Source: Chitinophaga pinensis (GTDB taxonomy: Bacteria; Bacteroidota; Bacteroidia; NS11-12g; UBA955). From it: a stretch of DNA of 64,000 bases. The first letter of the stretch is position 1, and every line of letters begins with the position of its first letter. The DNA is taken from assembly GCA_945877575.1 (NCBI GenBank), contig CAMDUE010000001.1, forward strand, positions 1 through 64,000, written 5' to 3'. This document shows, one piece after another, positions 12,929 through 47,260 of the stretch. The notes under the pieces are model-generated. The model was not told the DNA's origin and did not search any database. It saw nothing but the letters and a program-made list of their open reading frames with translations. A program made the position numbers and the translations under genes.

Positions 12929-12936
12929 CAAAGATA
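12929..12936 (-). promoter_or_regulatory. -7 promoter element of cvfB
   Basis: The reverse strand reads TATCTTTG, matching TAnnTTTG, and ends four bases before the cvfB ATG at 12924. The heptamer array starts seven bases upstream and occupies the place where a -33 box would be; no TTTG is seen there. Confidence 0.5.
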
Positions 12937-12943
12937 GGTTAAA

Positions 12944-13088
<145 letters not shown>

Positions 13089-13090
<2 letters not shown>

Positions 13091-13805
13091 ACCGAATTAA
13101 ATCTACGGAGATTCCCAAAAGCAATTGAAGTGAGGTCATAGAGATATTTCTCGTGTAGGTTGAAATATCTCCGGTTGAGTAATATGAGGCGACATTTGTA
13201 AACTCGTAACTAGAAGACGTGTAATTACAATCAGCATTTAAATTGATTTTTTTTGATAATGGTGTTCTGAAATTACCGCCAATGGAAAATCCCGGTGATG
13301 TTGCATAAGCAGCAGGTTGTACGTACCACAAATTACTTGAACCATACAAAAACCCTTCTTCCTCCGGAAGTTTACCAATAGTAGCACCTCCCATCAATCT
13401 GAATGTTAAATAGGATTTATCATTAACGGGATAAACATAATTTATTCCTATCATGTATGAAGATCGTACATAGATTCCTCCATAAATATTCGCGTCATAA
13501 AGTCCATTAATGTTTCTCCGAAGTTCGTTTCCATATTCATAAGATTTGAATGAATTTGTTTGGCTATTTACATTAAAACTTGCTCCGAGATTTCCGTTTT
13601 TGAATTTATAATCTACATTGAAAGCTGTAGATAATCCGGTTCCTGCAAAACCTGCATTTTCGGTATTGAAACTAGCACTTCTAAAACTCCCCATGGCTGA
13701 ACTTGTACCAATTCCATATGAAATGTTTAATTTGGGAGTTTGGCTAAATAATTGGGTAACTGAAATTGCCAAAACAACTATAAATGATGCTAACGCTTTG
13801 TACAT
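13089..13805 (-). CDS. Outer-membrane beta-barrel-like protein
   Basis: A 238-residue protein starting MYKALASFIVVLAISVTQLF with a signal peptide ending FSQ. The rest alternates short aromatic-rich strands and Gly/Asn turns (LGASFNVNSQTNSFKSYEYG; YLTFRLMGGATIGKLP; SIGGNFRTPLSKKINLNADC) and ends in a strand (LQLLLGISVDLIR), as expected of a small outer-membrane barrel. No specific family is recognised. The ATG at 13805 is preferred over the frame's upstream extension, which lacks signal-peptide logic and covers AT-rich intergenic DNA. A TTTATTTG element (one mismatch to TAnnTTTG) ends four bases before this ATG. The TAG stop belongs to the edge of heptamer array A. Confidence 0.75.
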
Positions 13806-13893: not shown

Positions 13894-14373
13894 ATGAATT
13901 CCCACACTTTTAACGGCTCTATCAGCTGGACAGGCAACCTCGGAACAGGTACCAGCGCATACGACCAATACGGACGTAACTTTGACGTCAATACCCCGAA
14001 TAAATTTCCGATTTTGGGATCAGCCGGTTCGGCCTTCCGTGGTGATGATCAAAGAAGCAATCCCGAAGACTTATTCATGAATGCACTTTCCTCCTGTCAC
14101 ATGCTTTGGTATTTTCACCTATGTGCAGATCGCGGAATAGTGGTAACAGATTATTCCGATAACTTCCATGGAACGCTGGAAATAGGAGAGAACGGCATCG
14201 GTAGGATGACGCAAGTTATCCTTAACCCTCATGTCAAAATCAACCGCGCTTCCTCTGTAGACAACGCTCTTGAAATAGCCGAACAACTCCACTCCGAAGC
14301 CCACAAGTTTTGTTTTATAGCAAATTCAGTAAATACGGAGATTGTCTGCCAGCCTCAAATTGAATTCTGTTGA
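13894..14373 (+). CDS. OsmC family peroxiredoxin-like protein
   Basis: A 159-residue protein beginning MNSHTFNGSISWTGNLGTG. It has the OsmC/Ohr fold pattern: an N-terminal strand-rich part with GNLGTGTSAYDQYGRNFDV, the helix with the first conserved cysteine (NALSSCHMLWYFHLC), and a C-terminal QLHSEAHKFCFIANSVNTEI segment. OsmC proteins reduce organic hydroperoxides with paired cysteines; here C78-like and downstream cysteines are present, but which pair acts is not certain. An upstream in-frame ATG at 13855 would add 13 residues unlike the family, so 13894 is chosen. The TGA stop directly abuts heptamer array B. Confidence 0.85.
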   Translation: MNSHTFNGSISWTGNLGTGTSAYDQYGRNFDVNTPNKFPILGSAGSAFRGDDQRSNPEDLFMNALSSCHMLWYFHLCADRGIVVTDYSDNFHGTLEIGENGIGRMTQVILNPHVKINRASSVDNALEIAEQLHSEAHKFCFIANSVNTEIVCQPQIEFC

Positions 14374-14513
14374 GCGGGTAGCGGGTATCGGGTACCGGGT
14401 AGCGGGTACAAGGTAGCGGGTAGTGGGTAGTGAGAAACTATGGACCCCGGACTACGGACCACGGACCACAGACTACAGACTACGGACCTCGGACTTCGGA
14501 CTACGGACTATAG
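14374..14513. repeat. Heptamer array B (20 units)
   Basis: 140 bases that read as exactly 20 heptamers without indels, filling the whole gap between two converging genes. The left block has units of the GCGGGTA type (GCGGGTA, TCGGGTA, CCGGGTA, CAAGGTA, GTGGGTA), and the right block units of the ACTACGG type (ACTACGG, ACCACGG, ACCACAG, ACTACAG, ACTTCGG). The first base follows the TGA stop of the OsmC gene. The last unit, ACTATAG, holds the stop codon of the DUF2130 gene (CTA at 14508-14510), in phase with the CTA of the other units. GTAG in the left block is complementary to CTAC in the right block. Confidence 0.9.
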
Positions 14514-15701
14514 ACCAAATTTCTCTTTCATCGTCGGATTGTTATGCGTCAACTTTTTGATCGTCAACTCCTCAGCTTTGTTGTTCGCCAACCTTAAATT
14601 ATCCTCCGATGATATCAATGCTTCCTTCGTTTTCTGCAAATGGGTTATGGTTTTATCAATCTCTTCAATCGCTGTTCTGAACTTGCGGCTCGCCAAATCG
14701 TAGTTGCGCGCAAATCCCTCCTTGAACGAATTCATCTTCGATTCAAAGTTCGTGATGTCAATATTTTGGCTCTGCATCAATGCCAATTCCGATTTGTATT
14801 TCAGCGTGTTCAACGCCGCATTCCGCAATAACGTGATGATGGGTATGAAAAACTGCGGACGTACCACGTACATCTTCGGATATTTGTAAGAAACGTCAAC
14901 AATTCCGGTGTTGTAATACTCGTTATCGACTTCCAACATCGATACCAACACCGCGTATTCGCACTTCTTTTCGGTCCGGTCTTTGTCGAGCTCTTTGAAG
15001 AAGTCTTCGTTCTTTTTCTTGGTAGCCGTGCCGTCGTTCTCGTTCTTCATTTCAAACATGATCGAAATGATTTCAGTTCCCGCATCGTCAAATTCCTTGA
15101 AAATAAAATCGCCCTTGCTTCCGCTCTTCGCGTCGTTGTCTTTTTCGAAATAAGCCCTGGGGAAGGCCGTAGCCCTCAATTTATTGAATTCTACCTCGCA
15201 ATGCTGCTCCAACGATTCGCCCAACATCTTAGTCGACATTTTTAGTTTAATGTCTTTCCGCATCTCAATTTCCTCGTCTTTAATGCGAATAATCTCGTCT
15301 TTGGTTTTAAGTTCTTGTTGGAATCGCTCTTTCAAGTTGCTTTCAGCCAGTTTTTTTTCCATCTCTTTGGATTGTAATTGGTTAGCCAACTCATTCCGCT
15401 CGTCAATTACTTTTTGGACCGCCTTGTTGACACTCAGTTCTTTTTCGAGCTCCGCCAATTCCAACTTCTTCTTCATTTCCGCCAACTCATTATCTTTGGT
15501 TTGGATGTGCTTTTGCAGCGCCGCTTTCAAGTTCGATTCTGACAACTTTAAGGCCGTTTCTTTCTCTCTTTCGGCTAAATCCATTCGAGTTTTCAACTCG
15601 TTTTCAAATTGTTGATCTCTAACTTGCTTCAAAATAGCTGCGAATCCAGCTTCATCCACCTTAAAAGCGGTCTTGCAATTGGGACAAATAATATCGTTCA
15701 T
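14508..15701 (-). CDS. DUF2130 family protein, coiled coil plus nuclease-like domain
   Basis: A 397-residue protein starting [20 protein letters not shown], with one CPNC pair at residues 6-9. Residues about 25-150 are a charged coiled coil. The globular C-terminal half contains [12 protein letters not shown] followed by [13 protein letters not shown], a D ... E-x-K arrangement like that of PD-(D/E)XK nucleases; DUF2130 is the family I recognise, and its nuclease link is an inference from these residues. The coding end runs into heptamer array B: the last two residues (GL) and the TAG stop are encoded by repeat-like sequence. The ATG follows a T-rich stretch without a clear Shine-Dalgarno. 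It is probably cytoplasmic. Confidence 0.85.
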
Positions 15702-15970: not shown

Positions 15971-16020
15971 GGTTACAATATAGAGACGATTCTCTAGAAT
16001 GAATATTATTATCTAAAAAT

Positions 16021-16116
16021 ATACCATAAAGGGTATAAAATAGCAATTTAAAATAAAATTATACCTTATAGGGTGTAAATTATCAAAATTTACTATATTT
16101 GTACCTCAAAGGGTAT
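16021..16116. promoter_or_regulatory. Three evenly spaced operators upstream of hipBST
   Basis: Three copies of an inverted repeat of the form TACC-N6-GGTA occur at 16021-16036 (ATACCATAAAGGGTAT), 16061-16076 (ATACCTTATAGGGTGT) and 16101-16116 (GTACCTCAAAGGGTAT). Their starts are exactly 40 bases apart, close to four helical turns. The third covers the predicted transcription start just after the -7 element. HipB proteins are known to bind such palindromes (TATCC-N8-GGATA in E. coli) and repress their own operon, so these are probably HipB sites. Confidence 0.8.
16094..16101 (+). promoter_or_regulatory. -7 promoter element of hipBST
   Basis: TATATTTG matches TAnnTTTG. It lies 18 bases before the ATG of hipB, between the second and third operator, overlapping the first base of the third. 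Binding at that operator would block initiation. Confidence 0.7.
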
Positions 16117-16119
16117 AAA

Positions 16120-16329
16120 ATGGAATTAAAAAACTTTGTTAAAGCCAAAAGAAAAGCAGTTAATCTCACTCAACCTGAATTAGCACTAAAAGCAGGAGTG
16201 GGGCTTCGATTTTTAAGAGAATTGGAACAGGGTAAAGACAGTTTGAGAATTGATAAAGTAAATCAGGTTTTAAAGTTGTTTGGTTATCAAGTTGGAGCCG
16301 TACCCGAAATAAAAGAAAATGAATTATGA
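16120..16329 (+). CDS. hipB: HipB-type antitoxin, XRE helix-turn-helix repressor
   Basis: A 69-residue protein starting MELKNFVKAKRKAVNLTQPE. The segment KAKRKAVNLTQPELALKAGVGLRFLRELEQGK is an XRE/Cro-type helix-turn-helix, as in HipB, and the tail (LRIDKVNQVLKLFGYQVGAV) matches the family's Y20-type extension. It is expected to bind DNA at the three upstream operators and, with HipS, to restrain HipT. The ATG at 16120 is chosen over an in-frame ATG at 16099, which would overlap the -7 element. Its stop overlaps the ATG of hipS (ATGA), so the three genes form one operon. Confidence 0.9.
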   Translation: MELKNFVKAKRKAVNLTQPELALKAGVGLRFLRELEQGKDSLRIDKVNQVLKLFGYQVGAVPEIKENEL

Positions 16330-28774: not shown

Positions 28775-28837
28775 AATGGGGCTGCAAATATAAAATTTGT
28801 TTTCTAATTTTCAATCTGAATCAAAAAAATTTATTTC

Positions 28838-28963
28838 GGTACCTGGTACCTAGACTCTAGTCTCTAGTCTCTAGTCTCCAGTCTCTAGTCTCTAGTCTCT
28901 AGTCTCCAGACCACCGACTACCAACTACCAACTACCAACTACCAACTACCAACTACCAATTAT
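28838..28963. repeat. Heptamer array C (18 units)
   Basis: 126 bases that read as 18 heptamers without indels: GGTACCT x2, AGACTCT, then AGTCTCT/AGTCTCC x7, AGACCAC, CGACTAC, CAACTAC x5 and a degenerate CAATTAT. The last unit contains the stop codon of the gene at 28960-29874 (TTA at 28960-28962), at the place of CTA in the perfect units. CAACTAC is the same heptamer, rotated, as ACCAACT of array A. The start of the array is 63 bases from the tRNA-Ser 5' end; that gap is AT-rich and shows nothing else. Confidence 0.9.
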
Positions 28964-29874
28964 AACCCCCAATTCAACCCCAAGAAGGGTAGAGGAGTAT
29001 AGGTTTCGCGATTTCTTCTGAATTCGTAGGTTCCCAAGTCAGCGTTGTAGTATTGGCCGCTGCTGGTGAAGCTCAAGCCCAAGACTCCCACGTCGAAGAA
29101 AAGATTTTTACCCACTTTGATTCTCATGGCTGGGCCGCCAGCGAATACCGGACCTTCGCTCTGCGGAAACATGGCCCAAAACTCCGCAATGAAGGCCACC
29201 TTCGATGAGGTTTCGCGGGCATAACACGCCGAAAAGATAGGCAATTTCTCATCCAAGCCCGTGTAAAATCCGTATCCGGCATTCACCGATATGTTCTCTT
29301 TTTTATCGCCGTAAGTCACGTTGGCAAAACCTATGCCGAGGGTTTCTTCGTCAACAAACCAAAGTTTACCAATTTGTCCGCCAACGCTCACATGGAGTTT
29401 ATCATCAATCTTCGCTGAATATTTGGCGTTTAGCAGGGTAGGCATCAAAATGGGAGTAGAAGTTATCCCAATAGAAAAGTCATCGGTCAAGCCATATTGC
29501 GCTTGAATCACCGAGAAGTACATTAAATTGATATACCCTTCGCCTTTCTTGATGGGGAAAGCTGAGGGCGAATAAAGGTACCTGCTTGCGTGCTCAGTGG
29601 CGCGATCAGTGGCGCTCTCTGTTGCTTTTTCCTTTTTCTCACCTGCATTCTTTTTGTATACAATGACGTATTTCGGAATTTCTATCTCTAAACCGTCTTC
29701 CCTGAGTATAGTGATGCTAGACGGATCTTCTTTTTTTACCGTTCCTCGGTGGATGTTTCCATCGCTGGTTTTGATTTCTACTTTTGATTTTAACGAGTCA
29801 ACGTCCGCGCTCTGCGCAAAAACGGCGCCCTGCGCCCAAAACATCCCCAGAAAAAATAAACACTTCCAATTCAT
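28960..29874 (-). CDS. Secreted or outer-membrane beta-barrel-like protein
   Basis: A 304-residue protein. Residues 1-21 are a signal peptide (MNWKCLFFLGMFWAQGAVFA). Residues about 25-75 (VEIKTSDGNIHRGTVKKEDP, then GLEIEIPKYVIVYKK) look like a small SH3- or Sm-like beta-domain, followed by a charged helical linker (KEKATESATDRATEHASR). The rest is strand-rich with Gly/aromatic ends (GYINLMYFSVIQAQYGLTDD; GIGFANVTYGDKKENISVNA; FLGLNWGL at the end), consistent with an outer-membrane barrel. No family is recognised. Its stop codon TAA lies in the last unit of array C. A TAACTTCG element (one mismatch) lies 10 bases before the ATG. Confidence 0.75.
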   Translation of the reverse strand: MNWKCLFFLGMFWAQGAVFAQSADVDSLKSKVEIKTSDGNIHRGTVKKEDPSSITILREDGLEIEIPKYVIVYKKNAGEKKEKATESATDRATEHASRYLYSPSAFPIKKGEGYINLMYFSVIQAQYGLTDDFSIGITSTPILMPTLLNAKYSAKIDDKLHVSVGGQIGKLWFVDEETLGIGFANVTYGDKKENISVNAGYGFYTGLDEKLPIFSACYARETSSKVAFIAEFWAMFPQSEGPVFAGGPAMRIKVGKNLFFDVGVLGLSFTSSGQYYNADLGTYEFRRNRETYTPLPFLGLNWGL

Positions 29875-33103: not shown

Positions 33104-33168
33104 TTATTTCTCCATTTCGTATCTTCACGGTCAACCATTTTATATCCAACTCCGTCTAATTGTCATTT

Positions 33169-34122
33169 ATGCGCACACTCATCATCATTGTTTCCTTTTT
33201 TAGCTTCTCTTCCACTTTCGCTCAGCTTATCACCAACAAACCCGAAACTCAAGCCCAAATGCTTGATTCTAACGGAAATGTGGTGCCCCCCAAATTGGAA
33301 ATCATCACTTCGGGCTTACGCGCCTACAAAACCATCATTTATCAGCGCATCACACAACAATACATCACCAACGAAAATCAGTTCTTCCTAGACGTAAAAC
33401 TAGATACCACTTACATCATCATCAAAAAAAGCCCCAAAATCAAAGATGTTTATTCCATCGGATTTTTCGCTGATGATCAAGGGAAGAAACCCGCCAAAAA
33501 CATCACCTCCATTGAGAAAAAAGAATGGCTGATTAAATTCAATGCCCAGGGTGAAATTGATTCCCTTTACAATTGGAAAGTCTTCCGCGATATGTTTGTG
33601 TCGGCCCTTTCAGTGCAAGCTCGCGAAAATCTCATCAACTCTGCACTTTTTTCAGAACGAAAGGCCCAATTCAACAATCCAGACGAAGTTAAAAAGCTTG
33701 TATTGGGCGACATGCATTATTTATTTCTTCCCTACGGGGATACCTTTGACCTGAATGTCAAATACTTAAGACTTAAACAGGTTAAAGACCCGTTCACCCA
33801 AGAAGATTTAGAGATTTTGGGCGATTATTACGCCGAATACAAAGAAGGTTCCCAAAACACTATCAATATTCACGCCCACAACCAGGCCGGTCCTGATCAG
33901 AAACCCCTCTTACTCCAAGAGTGCCAAGAATATCTGCGCAGCAGAAACAACACACAAGAACCCACTTCAGAGGTCACAGCTGTAGGACTCAATTCTGAGC
34001 AAGAATACCGATACAACAAGCTTAAAAAAGCCTTCATGTGGGTGACATTCTCAGACGTGATCACCATCAATCTCCAATCGCGAGGTAATCTGCGTACTTA
34101 CAGGCTTTGGGATGCGAATTAG
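33169..34122 (+). CDS. Secreted protein of unknown function, possibly gliding/T9SS-related
   Basis: A 317-residue protein with a signal peptide (MRTLIIIVSFFSFSSTFAQ) and a globular mixed domain (YKTIIYQRITQQYITNENQF; IKKSPKIKDVYSIGFFADD; YRYNKLKKAFMWVTFSDVIT). It recalls secreted components such as GldN in size and location, but I do not see the GldN motifs, so no name is given. The ATG at 33169 is chosen over a TTG at 33160. Its TAG stop (34120-34122) is the start of the first unit of heptamer array D. It lies 66 bases after the rplT terminator and probably has its own promoter. Confidence 0.65.
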   Translation: MRTLIIIVSFFSFSSTFAQLITNKPETQAQMLDSNGNVVPPKLEIITSGLRAYKTIIYQRITQQYITNENQFFLDVKLDTTYIIIKKSPKIKDVYSIGFFADDQGKKPAKNITSIEKKEWLIKFNAQGEIDSLYNWKVFRDMFVSALSVQARENLINSALFSERKAQFNNPDEVKKLVLGDMHYLFLPYGDTFDLNVKYLRLKQVKDPFTQEDLEILGDYYAEYKEGSQNTINIHAHNQAGPDQKPLLLQECQEYLRSRNNTQEPTSEVTAVGLNSEQEYRYNKLKKAFMWVTFSDVITINLQSRGNLRTYRLWDAN

Positions 34123-34371
34123 TACCAGGTACCAGGTACTAGGTGCCGGGTGCAGAGTACATGGTCGATGGTACATGGTACATGGTACATGGTACATGGT
34201 ACATGGTACATGGTACATGGTACATGGTACATGGTACATGGTCTGTAGTCTATAGTCTATAGTCCATAGTCCATAGTCTGCCGAAACCCGAAACCCGGTA
34301 CCCGGTACCCGGTACCCGGTACCCGGTACCCAGTACCTAGTACCTAGTACCTGGTACCCGCTACCCGTTAA
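34120..34371. repeat. Heptamer array D (36 units)
   Basis: 252 bases read as 36 heptamers without indels, passing through blocks in this order: TAGTACC, AGGTACC, AGGTACT, AGGTGCC, GGGTGCA, GAGTACA, TGGTCGA, TGGTACA x10, TGGTCTG, TAGTCTA x2, TAGTCCA x2, TAGTCTG, CCGAAAC x2, CCGGTAC x5, CCAGTAC, CTAGTAC x2, CTGGTAC, CCGCTAC and CCGTTAA. The first three bases are the TAG stop of the preceding gene. The remaining 98 bases to 34469 are AT-rich leader of the DUF47 gene. Left units with GGTAC can pair with right units carrying GTACC. Confidence 0.92.
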
Positions 34372-34469
34372 TTGGTACCATAGTGTAATATTAATAAAAT
34401 ATTAAATATATGTTTCAGATTGCTTGAGGCGTTGATTCTTGATTAGTTTCGCGTATAATTAATTTTTTA

Positions 34470-35117
34470 ATGGCTTTAAACAATCTACTCAGTATTTTCC
34501 TCCCCAAAGACAAGGTATTTTACAATCTGTTTGAGGAAACAGCGAAAAACATCTCAGAGATGGGAGTGAAATTTAAAGAGTTCGTTTATGAACCCGATGA
34601 ACAAAAAAGAACCGCAATTAACAAGCAAATTGAAGATCTTGAGCATAAAAATGATGAAATTACGCATCAAATTTTTCAAGAATTAGGTAAGAATTTTATC
34701 ACTCCTTTTGACAGAGAAGATATCCATTATCTAGCAACTGCAACAGATGATGTTGCTGATTATATTTATGCATCTAGTAAAAAAATGCAGTTCCACGGTG
34801 TTAATCCGAATGACACAGGAATTCAAAATCTTGCAGAATTGATTTGTCAAGGTGCTCACGAAGTATCTAAAGTTATTATGCAACTTCGCGAATTAAAACG
34901 CCCAGAGAAAATCATGGAGTCAATTGTGAAGATCAATAGTTTAGAAAATCATGCTGACAATGTATTTGATTTGAGCATACGTGAACTTTTTGAAAAAGAA
35001 GATGATTTTAAACGACTAATCAAACGTCGTGAGGTATATACGGTTATGGAAGTTGCAACTGATAAGTTTGAAGATGTAGCCAATGTAATCGAAACGATCA
35101 TCGTTAAATACGCTTAA
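34470..35117 (+). CDS. DUF47 family protein (PhoU-like phosphate transport regulator)
   Basis: A 215-residue all-helical protein: MALNNLLSIFLPKDKVFYNL, then KTINKQIEDLEHKNDEITHQ-like helices with FDREDIHYLATATDDVADYI. This is the DUF47/PhoU-like family that is almost always paired with a Pit phosphate permease, where it is thought to regulate transport. The Pit gene follows 10 bases later, so they form an operon. Conserved acidic residues (E/D-x3-D pairs in ATDDVADY and VATDKFEDVANV) are those expected to bind metals in PhoU-like folds. The leader is AT-rich. Confidence 0.9.
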   Translation: MALNNLLSIFLPKDKVFYNLFEETAKNISEMGVKFKEFVYEPDEQKRTAINKQIEDLEHKNDEITHQIFQELGKNFITPFDREDIHYLATATDDVADYIYASSKKMQFHGVNPNDTGIQNLAELICQGAHEVSKVIMQLRELKRPEKIMESIVKINSLENHADNVFDLSIRELFEKEDDFKRLIKRREVYTVMEVATDKFEDVANVIETIIVKYA

Positions 35118-42767: not shown

Positions 42768-44192
42768 ATGATTCGCAAATCTCTTCAAGTTTTGGGCATT
42801 TTAGGTGCCTATTTCCATGCGGTTGACGCTCAAGTTCAATCTTATAAAATACAAAATACCCCAAATTCTGGAGTCTTCATTCAAACAAATCAAACGCTGC
42901 AAGATTCCAAAGTTGATACCATTCGAATCTCATCTACCAACCGAAGCATTGCAAAATACGTGGTTGCCAGCCAGCACGAAAGAGTTTCATACACGGTGAA
43001 TCAAACTGAACCTACTTACAGATATATTTCCAAGCCCAAAAGATATATCAATGATTTTGCTTTGGGATTATACTATTCCCAAGAATCTTTCAGCGACAAT
43101 CTTTCCTGGGACACCCTACGTTTTCGAAACTCAGATTCTAAGTTTGTTCCGGGTTCACAGATGAACAAAGTAAGTGGATTTGGTTTTCATTTTCTTTTCG
43201 GGGGACGTAAATTCATTCCACAAACACAACTGGGCTCATTCAACTGGGGCTTAGGAATGGATTTCAATCATTTTCGTAGAGGTCCCAAAACACAAGTAGC
43301 CTTTAATAATGATCTCGAAGATAAAGGCTTTACTCGTTTAGAAACTTCAGCAGTCAACTTTCATGGAATTGCTCGTTATGAAAAACGAGTGGGTTTATTG
43401 TATCCTTATGCCGCAGCCAAAGTGGGTTTCAATTTTTACAGTACCCAACAATATACCGAAGCACATAGAACGTCCACTAATTACGAATCAACCAATTCTG
43501 AAAATATTTCTACTGATATTACACCATATTTCGCCTACGAATTGGGTGTTCGCGCCAAATTAGCCTCTGGATTTAGCGTTTTCGCCTCCTATGAGAATCG
43601 TACTGGAAACCAATTAGAAATTATAAATTTATCCCAGTCAACTTTCAACGGTTTCGAATATAAAAACGATGTTAAAACTGTAGATTACAAAATCGAAAAC
43701 ATCAAATTCGGACTGTTATTTGATTTAAGCGCTGTAGAACGTGAGAAAGAGGTAGTTACTCCATCCAGATTAGATACCACCTATATCACTAATCTGGTTG
43801 TTTTTGACACTGTCTGGCTTGAAGAACCCCAAGTACGTTCAGAGGTAATCCGCGTTTCTGACCCAAGATTAAAAGGATATTATTTGAGTAAATGCAAAAA
43901 CTGTTTGTGTGATACCAATGCTAAAACAAACAATACCCGAATCATAGGAACATCACCAACCGAAATCAACAGAACCAACAACACCAATTCCGAGCTCAAA
44001 CCAGCACCATCAAAAAGCTCAACACCCACACCCACACCAACCAAATCAAGTGCTGAAATAAACACTCAATCATCCGGTGGTGCTTTACAAAACACACCTA
44101 GACCTTCTACTTCCACCTCAAACGGATCTGGCACCATCAAAGCATTTCCTGGAATTAAACCTCCACCAGCTGTCAAAAAGCCAAAGGCTTAA
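42768..44192 (+). CDS. Outer-membrane beta-barrel protein with low-complexity C-terminal tail
   Basis: A 474-residue protein with a signal peptide (MIRKSLQVLGILGAYFHAVD then AQ). Residues about 90-330 are strand-rich with barrel-like periodicity (GFGFHFLFGGRKFIPQTQLG; LYPYAAAKVGFNFYS; GFSVFASYENRTGNQLEI). Residues about 390-474 are a Ser/Thr/Pro/Asn-rich tail (SSTPTPTPTKSSAEINTQ) ending in PPPAVKKPKA, with two close cysteines (CKNCLC) before it. The tail may be surface-exposed or periplasmic. No family is recognised. Its TAA stop lies two bases before heptamer array E, and it converges on uvrA. Confidence 0.75.
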   Translation: MIRKSLQVLGILGAYFHAVDAQVQSYKIQNTPNSGVFIQTNQTLQDSKVDTIRISSTNRSIAKYVVASQHERVSYTVNQTEPTYRYISKPKRYINDFALGLYYSQESFSDNLSWDTLRFRNSDSKFVPGSQMNKVSGFGFHFLFGGRKFIPQTQLGSFNWGLGMDFNHFRRGPKTQVAFNNDLEDKGFTRLETSAVNFHGIARYEKRVGLLYPYAAAKVGFNFYSTQQYTEAHRTSTNYESTNSENISTDITPYFAYELGVRAKLASGFSVFASYENRTGNQLEIINLSQSTFNGFEYKNDVKTVDYKIENIKFGLLFDLSAVEREKEVVTPSRLDTTYITNLVVFDTVWLEEPQVRSEVIRVSDPRLKGYYLSKCKNCLCDTNAKTNNTRIIGTSPTEINRTNNTNSELKPAPSKSSTPTPTPTKSSAEINTQSSGGALQNTPRPSTSTSNGSGTIKAFPGIKPPPAVKKPKA

Positions 44193-44194
44193 TT

Positions 44195-44404
44195 TGGTAC
44201 AAGGTAGCGGGTAGCAGGATTCGGGTTTCGGGTTTCGGGTGTCAGGATTCGGGATTCGGGATTCGGGTGTCAGGATTCGGGATTCGGGATTCGGAAGTCA
44301 GGCTGATGAATAACCCGGTACCCAAGACCCGGTACCCAAGACCCGGTACCCGGCTCCCGGCTCCCGGTACCCGAGACCCGGTACCTAGTACCTAGTACCT
44401 AGTA
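44195..44404. repeat. Heptamer array E (30 units)
   Basis: 210 bases read as 30 heptamers without indels, filling the gap between converging genes. Left part: TGGTACA, AGGTAGC, GGGTAGC, then AGGATTC/GGGATTC/GGGTTTC/GGGTGTC units (12 of them). Right part: CCCGGTA, CCCAAGA, CCCGGCT and CCCGAGA units (10), ending in CCTAGTA x3. The uvrA stop (CTA at 44405-44407) follows directly and looks like a fourth CCTAGTA unit missing one C. The G-rich left and C-rich right halves are complementary, for instance GGGTTTCGGG with CCCAAGACCC (eight Watson-Crick pairs, one G-T, one mismatch). Confidence 0.92.
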
Positions 44405-47260
44405 CTAAGAATTTAACTCCAATTTCAAAAATCTACCGGTATGTGATTGAGGTAATTGTGCGATTTTCTCAGGTGTTCCAACACCCACAATTTCGCCGCC
44501 GCCAACTCCGCCTTCTGGACCTACATCAATAAGCCAATCAGCTACTTTGATGACATCCATGTTGTGCTCTATAACCAAGACCGTATTTCCTTTGTCTACC
44601 AAAGTTTGAAGCACACCTAAAAGCTGTTTGATATCGTCAAAATGTAGACCAGTGGTAGGTTCATCAAGTATGTATAAGGTTTTTCCAGTGTCTCGTTTGC
44701 TCAGTTCGGTAGCCAGTTTTACTCGTTGAGCTTCTCCGCCACTCAAGGTGGTGGAGCTTTGACCCAAGGTTATATATCCCAAGCCAACTTCTTCCATGGT
44801 TTTGATTTTACGGTGAATCAAAGGTATGTGATCGAAAAATTCTACCGCTTGTGATATGGGCATGTCTAGCACATCAGATATGCTCTTTCCTTTGTAGCGG
44901 ACTTCCAAAGTTTCTCGGTTGTAGCGCTTACCAAGGCAAACATCGCATTCAATTTCTACGTTGGGTAAAAAGTTCATCTCAATCACCTTTCGGCCACCGC
45001 CCGAACACTCTTCGCACCTTCCACCTTTTACATTGAATGAAAATCTTCCAGGTTTGTAGCCCCTGATTTTTGCCTCAGGATGGTTTGCATATAGGTTTCT
45101 GATTTCCTGAAATACACCTACATACGTCGCTGGATTGCTTCTTGGGGTTCTTCCTATGGGACTTTGATCTATTCGGATGACTTTGTCAATATGTTCTAAT
45201 CCTTTGATGGAATCGTGTTCCAATACTCGGTAATGAGAACCGTAAATTCTTTGGTGTGCAAGAGGATAGAGGGTCTCATTCACCATAGACGATTTACCGC
45301 TACCGCTGACCCCAGTAACACAGACAAAAACTCCCAATGGAATTTCTAAGTCAGTTCCTTTTAAATTATGTCCTCTACAACCCTTTAATTTGATGCTATC
45401 AGACCATTTACGTCTTACACTCGGAACGGCAATTTGTTCCTTTCCGGCCAAATATTTTGCGGTTGTAGTGTCTGAATTCAGAAAATCAGATACGATTCCA
45501 CTGGCAATGATTTGTCCGCCTTTTTTACCAGCGTATGGGCCAATTTCAACCAACCAGTCGCTGGCCAACATCATATCTTTATCGTGCTCAACTACAAGTA
45601 CAGAGTTGCCTAAATCACGTAAATCTTTCAGACTCTGAATCAATTTTTCGTTGTCTCTCTGATGCAAACCAATAGATGGTTCGTCTAAAATATACAATAC
45701 GTTTACCAGCTTGGATCCTATCTGAGTGGCCAATCTAATTCTTTGAGCTTCACCTCCAGAAAGAGTTTTTGCAGGGCTATTCAAACTCAAATATCCCAGT
45801 CCAACACCAACCAAGAAAGACAATCTCGATGAAATTTCTTTGAGCAATTCTGTTGCAATGCTCTTTTGTCTCTCTGTTAATAGCGGTTCTACCTGCATGA
45901 TCCAATCGTGGAGGTCAGAAATATTCATGGAAGACAATTCCGAAATATTCTTATTACCAATCTTGAAATGCAATGATTCCTGCTTCAATCTAGAACCCTG
46001 ACATTCCGGACATTTAACTTCGTGAATGAATTCCTCAGCCCATTGTTGCATTCTGTCATCGTCTGACTCGAAATAGGAATCTGAAACAATCCGAATGACA
46101 CCTTTAAAGGTGCTTTCGTAGGTACGGCCTTTGTTTTCGCCGCTATTGATTTTAATTACAATGGGATCTTCAACCCCATATAATACTGCGTTTAACTGTT
46201 CCTTTGACAAAGATTCAATAGGGTCAGCCAAACTGAATTTGTACATCTGCGCAATGCTCCGTAATTGCTGGAACGTCCAATTTTCTCTCAATTCACCAAC
46301 TGGAACAATGCCTCCCTTGTTTATGGATAGCTTAGGATTAGGTATGATAAATTCAAGATTTACCTCAGATTTAACCCCAAGGCCTTCACAAGTTTTACAT
46401 GCACCATAGGGCGAGTTGAAACTAAACGAATTAGGTTGTGGTTCAGCATAGCTCAAACCCGTTTTTGGATCCATCAAGAACTTAGAAAAAGGGTAGGGAA
46501 TGCCTTTTTCATCAAGTACCGTCAAGTAACCATCGCCCACCTTTAAAGCAGTTTTAACACTATCGTTGAGCCTTTGAGGCGACGCCGACTTTACTTCTAA
46601 GCGGTCTATAACAATGTCAATATCGTGAATTTTATAACGGTCAAGTTGCATGCCAGTCGTGATATCTATCACCACGCCGTCAACATATACCTTATTGAAA
46701 CCACGTTTCTTGATTTGCTCAAATAAATCTCTATAATTTCCTTTTCTACCCTTAATAACAGGGGCACAAAGAGTGATTTTTTGGCTTTCGAAGGACATTA
46801 ATACAGATTCCTGGATTTGCTCTTCTGAAAAGCGAACCATCTTCTCACCGCTTAAATAACTATAAGCTTCACCCGCTCTTGCATAAAGTAAGCGCAGAAA
46901 ATCATAGATTTCCGTAACGGTTCCAACGGTAGACCTTGGATTTCTTGAAACGGTCTTCTGTTCAATGGCAATTACAGGGCTTAACCCTTTAATTTTATCA
47001 ACGTCAGGGCGTTTCATATTGCCCACAAATTGACGGGCATATGCTGAGAAACTCTCTAAATATCTGCGTTGACCTTCTGCAAAAATAGTGTCGAAGGCCA
47101 GCGAACTTTTCCCTGATCCAGATAATCCGGTAAAAACCACCAAAGATTTGCGTGGAATTTCCAGCGAAACTTCTTTAAGATTGTGCTCTCTTGCTCCAAT
47201 GACTTCAATGATGCCTTTTTCAGGCCCAGGAGTATGGATGTCTTTCTGGAAATCCGACAT
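44405..47260 (-). CDS. uvrA: Excinuclease ABC subunit A
   Basis: A 951-residue protein of normal UvrA length. It begins with IIEVIGAREHNLKEVSLEIP and Walker A GLSGSGKSS. Both ABC signatures are present (LSGGEAQRIRLATQIGS and LSGGEAQRVKLATELSK), with two D-loops LYILDEP. Zinc fingers: YGACKTCEGLG plus CPECQGSRL, and RCEECSGGGRKVIEMN plus CDVCLGKRY. UvrA recognises bulky DNA damage and loads UvrB. It is complete. Its TAG stop is formed by heptamer-like sequence of array E. An imperfect -7 element TAAATTCG lies six bases before the ATG. Confidence 0.96.
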   Translation of the reverse strand: MSDFQKDIHTPGPEKGIIEVIGAREHNLKEVSLEIPRKSLVVFTGLSGSGKSSLAFDTIFAEGQRRYLESFSAYARQFVGNMKRPDVDKIKGLSPVIAIEQKTVSRNPRSTVGTVTEIYDFLRLLYARAGEAYSYLSGEKMVRFSEEQIQESVLMSFESQKITLCAPVIKGRKGNYRDLFEQIKKRGFNKVYVDGVVIDITTGMQLDRYKIHDIDIVIDRLEVKSASPQRLNDSVKTALKVGDGYLTVLDEKGIPYPFSKFLMDPKTGLSYAEPQPNSFSFNSPYGACKTCEGLGVKSEVNLEFIIPNPKLSINKGGIVPVGELRENWTFQQLRSIAQMYKFSLADPIESLSKEQLNAVLYGVEDPIVIKINSGENKGRTYESTFKGVIRIVSDSYFESDDDRMQQWAEEFIHEVKCPECQGSRLKQESLHFKIGNKNISELSSMNISDLHDWIMQVEPLLTERQKSIATELLKEISSRLSFLVGVGLGYLSLNSPAKTLSGGEAQRIRLATQIGSKLVNVLYILDEPSIGLHQRDNEKLIQSLKDLRDLGNSVLVVEHDKDMMLASDWLVEIGPYAGKKGGQIIASGIVSDFLNSDTTTAKYLAGKEQIAVPSVRRKWSDSIKLKGCRGHNLKGTDLEIPLGVFVCVTGVSGSGKSSMVNETLYPLAHQRIYGSHYRVLEHDSIKGLEHIDKVIRIDQSPIGRTPRSNPATYVGVFQEIRNLYANHPEAKIRGYKPGRFSFNVKGGRCEECSGGGRKVIEMNFLPNVEIECDVCLGKRYNRETLEVRYKGKSISDVLDMPISQAVEFFDHIPLIHRKIKTMEEVGLGYITLGQSSTTLSGGEAQRVKLATELSKRDTGKTLYILDEPTTGLHFDDIKQLLGVLQTLVDKGNTVLVIEHNMDVIKVADWLIDVGPEGGVGGGEIVGVGTPEKIAQLPQSHTGRFLKLELNS

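Follow-up and report, generated by a model that had tools for sequence, protein, structure and literature searches.

Organization of array D

Arrays of heptamers have been described here and there among bacteria, to our knowledge without an accepted origin or role, and array D raises the question of how a single array comes to change its unit several times along its length in one phase of seven, and from where its successive units came. The window, i.e., the whole stretch of DNA that was analysed, covers the opening 64 kb of contig C1 in genome G000 (2.5 Mb, 99.9% complete, 30 contigs), whose relatives are metagenome bins of the Bacteroidia (Bacteroidota). Cut into sevens from position 34120, D comprises 36 heptamers at 34120-34371. 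An outer left zone on the plus strand (34120-34168) holds seven heterogeneous, RGTACNN-like units (TAGTACC, AGGTACC, AGGTACT, AGGTGCC, GGGTGCA, GAGTACA and TGGTCGA), the first of which includes the TAG with which the upstream reading frame ends. It is followed on the same strand by a G/T-rich block of ten TGGTACA units (34169-34238), recognized both by lag-7 identity and by reading the units, and by an inner left zone (34239-34280) of TGGTCTG, two TAGTCTA, two TAGTCCA and one TAGTCTG. The right arm (34281-34371) runs through two CCGAAAC, five CCGGTAC, CCAGTAC, two CTAGTAC, CTGGTAC, CCGCTAC and CCGTTAA; it is C/A-rich on the plus strand and is assigned to the minus strand, on which it reads GGT-first like the left arm. 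D has two arms, both built on RGTNNNN when read inward from each end, and the step from TAGTCTG to CCGAAAC is a strand switch at which the upper strand passes from G/T-rich to C/A-rich. Lag-7 identity spans 34121-34382, showing that D extends a little past 34371.

The stop codon of a 320-residue reading frame without a Pfam match (33160-34122, plus strand) adjoins D on its left, and a gene for a DUF47/PhoU_div protein (34470-35117, plus strand) lies downstream, the next gene encoding a PHO4 phosphate transporter. Lag 7 and its multiple 14 are the sole period of such arrays in the window, lags 5, 6, 8 and 9 giving none throughout its length. No array appeared in three windows randomized by an order-1 Markov model, in which the top lag-7 score was 24/42 as against 42/42 for D. 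An AT-rich 40-bp tandem repeat in three copies at 16014-16132 of the window bears no relation to the heptamers.

The original prediction of five or more unit types, in named blocks, over 36 units and in a phase of seven was confirmed by the heptamer cut and by lag-7 identity; its description of D had omitted the first seven heterogeneous units. The transitions had also been called sharp, which is only partly so: neighbouring D units differ at 0-2 of seven positions except in four steps, GAGTACA to TGGTCGA (4), TGGTACA to TGGTCTG (3), TAGTCTG to CCGAAAC (6) and one step of 4 at the extreme end, and the one true jump is that from TAGTCTG to CCGAAAC. The phase is unbroken over the 36 units as had been stated, although it carries little information across the jump, where the flanking unit types have one letter in common. 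The premise that one slipping repeat would give one unit type did not survive. The 62 G000 array complexes comprise 1673 steps from one unit to the next, and in 69% of these the two units differ at no more than two positions, compared with 29% when units are shuffled within each array; the related genome G011 gives 67% of 862 steps (shuffled, 29%). The closeness of neighbouring units indicates that blocks are chiefly local multiplication of near variants; local duplication with mutation fits it, and most of the block borders in D are of this kind.

Heptamer arrays across the genome

D is not solitary: at least 60 arrays resembling it occur in the sampled part of G000, usually touching stop codons and mostly between convergent genes. 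A lag-7 scan over 634 kb of G000 gave 68 arrays, a density that is not the G000 average because the stretches were mostly chosen around matches of D itself, and one over 810 kb of G011 gave 45. In the same 634 and 810 kb, lags 5, 6, 8 and 10 gave no arrays, and lag 9 gave two, both in G011. Four contigs taken whole (C1, C8, C15 and C20; 588 kb) carry 17 complexes with a total length of 3240 bp. Density is very uneven, with five of the six complexes on contig C1 (1-381908) falling in its first 45 kb and none past 105 kb.

In G000, 57 of the 68 arrays could be assigned to 51 gaps between reading frames, of which 28 are convergent, 21 tandem and 2 divergent (the other 11 arrays were unassigned); gaps of at least 20 bp in the same stretches comprise 48 convergent, 136 tandem and 69 divergent. 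With a crude call of reading frames, array edges lie mostly a few tens of bases or less from a stop codon. The arrays also have a polarity. In 36 of 68 G000 arrays and 15 of 35 G011 arrays, the sequence is G-rich over its first third and C-rich over its last, with one reversed array in G000, none in G011, and the rest one-sided or weak. Where an array has two arms, each arm has its G-rich strand pointing, 5' to 3', to the centre of the array, independent of the direction of neighbouring genes, and since this polarity is equal in tandem and convergent gaps, it is a property of the array and not of transcription. A purpose of the arms in forming hairpins or cruciforms was rejected as the reason for the polarity: predicted RNA energy was lower than that of the same array with its right arm flipped in only 8 of 38 G000 arrays, so that hairpin formation is not favoured.

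The commonest units are GGTACCC, GGTTTCG and AGTCTCT, and several unit families coexist within one genome, units inside one array being very diverse. Where two arms meet, the facing arms are of unlike type in 27 orderings, as against 3 and 6 for arms of like type (62 G000 complexes, with types defined by us). The GGT and ACC of the two arms are offset by 1 in 14 of 26 two-armed arrays of G000 and in 3 of 7 of G011 (the offset in D is 4); this is at most suggestive of a fixed register between arms, and some units hold both triplets.

Array sites in a sister species

G011 is the nearest relative compared (DUF47 protein 95% identical, aligned DNA 83.5% identical). At the site of D, the flanking sequences of the two genomes correspond without a break of more than a few bases, and the G011 flanks enclose a heptamer array of other units, around CAGCGGA, that measures 116 bp instead of 266 bp, array lengths that may be in error if the two genomes are, as is possible, metagenome bins. 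None of the blocks of D is present in this array, the only one found at the site in a relative, and the relatives thus do not show an ancestral array that diverged purely by point mutation, in agreement with what had been predicted.

Array sites are shared elsewhere as well. Four contigs were taken whole to avoid the bias of picked stretches, and of the 393 gaps between reading frames on them that could be lifted to G011, 8 hold an array in both species, 383 in neither, one in G000 only (array B) and one in G011 only (Fisher p 6e-15), a table that leaves out sites with unlifted anchors, among them E, A, C and the C20 sites. The same tally in the picked stretches gave 8 in both, 1 in G000 only, 1 in G011 only and 171 in neither (of 181). 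Where both flanks of a complex could be mapped, a partner array was present for 9 of 11 G000 complexes, and in the reverse direction for 10 of 12.

Of the five arrays in the window, three (A, B and C) have no counterpart in G011. Array A (12929-13109; GTCTGTG, GTCCATA / ACCAACT) has no array at the matching G011 place, where the neighbourhood is rearranged; array B (14360-14524; GGTAGCG / GGACTAC) matches a place without one; and the place of array C (28830-28978; AGTCTCT / ACCAACT) is occupied in G011 by about 26 bp, as compared with about 155 in G000. Array E (44191-44419) fills the gap of two convergent reading frames, with stop codons at about 44192 and 44405, and the G011 array found there is built of other units. 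No strand is assigned to these four arrays.

Some stretches are far more alike than the 83.5% at which the genomes align. G000:C19:9716-11835 is 99% identical to G011, and the DNA left of G000:C15:44761 is 96% identical and directly adjoins an array whose units differ; such stretches could reflect either recent exchange or very conserved genes. The flanks of the arrays themselves show 43 similarities to one another in G011 and none in G000, and a mobile border common to the arrays was rejected since G000 loci have no flank similarity. At the borders of several G011 arrays (C1:481600-481670, C1:41253, C1:477448, C1:528046, C1:531843 and C3:3570) there is a second dispersed repeat, seen as CGCTAGGACTTGCGCT together with a palindrome near AGCGGCAGAGCCGCT.

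Replacement of units between species

Unit similarity was measured as heptamer content compared regardless of rotation and strand. Its mean is 0.169 within G000 (63 complexes; inflated by the choice of stretches around D) and 0.215 within G011 (42 complexes), compared with 0.022 between the genomes and 0.010 (highest, 0.067) at 16 matched sites, some of which were paired through one flank only. The nearest array belongs to the same genome for 99 of 105, and the difference of within and between similarity is 0.161, as against at most 0.024 in 2000 permutations of the labels. A whole-genome pattern search, which is free of the bias in choice of stretches, gave 336 matches to (GGTGATC)3 with up to two mismatches in G011, of which GGTGATC is the commonest unit, 0 in the whole of G000 and none in four other genus members. 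Units thus resemble those of other arrays in their own species more than those at the matched loci of the other species, the pattern expected of satellites under concerted evolution. Together, the shared sites, the almost unrelated units at matched sites and the likeness of units within each genome lead to the conclusion that site, period and polarity are inherited, whereas units are common across a genome and are replaced between species.

A sister pair having the same places and wholly different units makes it possible to tell the inherited features (site, period, polarity) from the replaced one (sequence), and with that separation it becomes testable, in strains near or between the two species, whether units pass from one array to another and at what rate. 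Unit types could also mark the origin of a piece of DNA. Three G011 arrays are exceptions to the replacement and carry units of the G000 type (C1:8454-8638, C3:55059-55332 and C3:55984-56150). The DNA around the two on C3 has almost no G000 counterpart except the arrays, and to judge from this the region may be foreign DNA that carried its arrays in. In the other direction, two decayed units of the GGTGATC type stand at G000:C8:68133, where G011 (C1:481669) has an array of that type; this is the lone lifted site with an array in G011 only, and the pair is the only GGTGATC-type tandem outside arrays in the G000 stretches scanned. As a single case, it is possibly the relic of an older common array and of an ancestral unit.

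Possible exchange between arrays and alternative explanations

A 46-bp tract of D, two CCGAAAC followed by five CCGGTAC, recurs exactly and in opposite orientation within G000:C12:60351-60478, and the CCGAAAC/CCGGTAC block border is therefore not private to D. Mixed 28-bp words common to different loci number 17 in G000 and 34 in G011, as against null means of 2.1 (maximum 10) and 1.4 (maximum 15) from local shuffles. Only 7 pairs of G000 loci have a common mixed word of at least 28 bp, so that any copying from one array to another would be infrequent or would date far back. The proposal that D grew by serial additions from different sources is upheld in part by the multi-block tract at a second locus and by the mixed words; no sign of separate sources outside the genome was seen, the common tracts tracing to other G000 arrays.

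On this evidence we favour, with a probability of roughly 0.58, the reading that D belongs to a dispersed family of two-armed heptamer satellites in which slippage combined with copying between arrays amounts to concerted evolution. Slippage or short unequal exchange inside an array would multiply a local variant and so give blocks that are in phase; occasionally a tract of several units would be copied from another array, giving jumps and common mixed words; and repetition over time would homogenise the arrays of one genome as its common units drift from those of the sister. The array sites would persist, perhaps because extra DNA at these places does little harm.

Local slippage and point mutation alone, acting on old single arrays whose blocks are local expansions and which exchange nothing between loci, appears rather unlikely. 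The closeness of neighbouring units, with steps in D of mostly 0-2 bases, is what such a process would leave, and polymerase slippage has been proposed for heptamers in two published accounts (PMC4692102, PMC4679880), but it fails to account for units that are common to scattered arrays of one genome and yet missing from the matched arrays of the sister, or for the 46-bp tract in common with C12. Unlikely to a similar degree are independent births at hot sites after the two species split, each species starting from seed units of its own at the same preferred positions behind genes. Other genus members do seem to be without arrays (none in 80 kb of G001; the GGT pattern absent from 11 of 14 genus genomes searched) and convergent gaps are favoured, yet coincidence of 8 of 10 occupied gaps among 393 would require an extreme site preference, and the relic units of G011 type at an array-free G000 site point to an older common array. 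Selection of the sites for a fast-evolving binding protein or for a transcription-ending function, with the unit following its partner so that arrays change together, seems improbable. The arrays do adjoin stop codons, and Xanthomonas transcripts are described in PMC4692102 as starting or stopping more often at G-quadruplex-type heptamer arrays; the same paper, however, reports no regulatory role for the heptamers, and here units are very diverse within single arrays, polarity is independent of gene direction and, for 30 of 38 two-armed arrays, the RNA is predicted to fold at least as much once an arm is flipped.

Two further explanations invoke a writer. A telomerase-like enzyme adding heptamers from its template to 3' ends at broken sites, a change of template rewriting every array, would account for a fixed period with free sequence, for the G-rich strand running inward to the joint of two-armed arrays and for all arrays of one genome changing together. 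In yeasts, a changed telomerase template rewrites the telomere repeats. The nearly complete G000 genome, however, is without an RVT_1 reverse transcriptase and without a Y1 transposase, and several unit families stand side by side in one genome, all of which makes such an enzyme highly improbable. Distinctly unlikely, rather than highly improbable, is a dedicated or recruited mechanism that writes heptamers inward from broken 3' ends behind genes by copying from a small template that is itself mobile, such as circles excised from array DNA and spread through rolling-circle copying; if it were true, every array of a genome could be converted to a new unit set quickly.

Searches for enzymes gave no RVT_1 protein in G000 and one in G011, and no match to the Y1 transposase PF01797 (the RAYT of REP/REPIN systems) in G000, G011 or eight other genus members; reverse transcriptase and Y1 transposase were rejected as writers, both being absent from G000. 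Loss of mismatch repair and loss of SbcCD were likewise rejected as causes, because MutS is found in all ten genus genomes tested and SbcD above the cut-off in none of the ten, array-rich or not, and neither sorts array-rich from array-free genomes.

Relation to known repeats and wider distribution

In the concerted evolution of satellite DNA, and in the roll-and-spread model of yeast telomeres, units are common to many loci within a species and different between species. The present arrays differ in being in a bacterium, at scattered chromosomal sites and with no candidate enzyme. The general kind of array is already known from the descriptions of Rehm et al. (2015; PMC4692102) and MacGregor (2015; PMC4679880). 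The former describes dispersed GGGAATC and GGGGA(C/T)T heptamers of Xanthomonas and Nostoc, of unknown function, with the G-rich repeat downstream on the coding strand, and convergent paired arms, with 70 cases among the 186 repeats of X. campestris and 75 among the 183 of X. axonopodis pv. citri; for the most part they have the same neighbouring genes in both of two species and vary in length and sequence. The arrays described here agree with them in having a period of seven, in being dispersed and intergenic, in their convergent arms with the G-rich strand inward, in edges near stop codons, in being rare between divergent genes, and in keeping mostly the same neighbouring genes in two species. 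Those repeats, as that account presents them, have one consensus with G3 tracts for both species, whereas here there are many unit types per array, G3 is not the rule and the sister's units are entirely different. A GGGAATC-type unit with G3 tracts capable of forming G-quadruplexes does not characterize the present arrays: the repeated units of D hold only GG or G, and the commonest units are those named above.

MacGregor's TAACTGA repeats of Beggiatoaceae, Cyanobacteria and some Bacteroidetes are likewise intergenic direct repeats of a heptamer, and long mixed heptamer assemblages, absent from close relatives, are mentioned for some Bacteroidetes (PMC4679880). According to the same account the TAACTGA repeats have one fixed unit and lie mostly just upstream of start codons, in contrast to the position after stop codons here, and TAACTGA is absent from D and from the 25 commonest units of G000 and of G011. 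The long simple sequence repeats with seven-base units of Mrazek et al. (2007), as related in PMC4692102 and PMC4679880, share with the present arrays an excess of heptamers for which slippage was proposed; that study was a census, apparently without two-armed structure or unit turnover. Among open-licence papers, no earlier description was found of species-wide unit replacement at shared sites, i.e., of complete unit turnover at sites common to sister species.

More widely, (GGTNNNN)5GGT, a pattern that presupposes GGT and leaves arrays of other units uncounted, matches 11 of 108 genomes of the order, with G000 and G011 far above the others and with own units in each lineage (GGTTATT, GGTAAGT, GGTTGTA and others). 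Among 14 genus members it matches G000, G011 and, twice, G002. One G002 array that was compared stands at a place without an array in both G000 and G011. The G002 heptamer arrays, on C175 (L140) and C217 (L151), show the two-armed form and draw on a third set of units: GGTTTAT, GGTCTCT and GGTTTCT.
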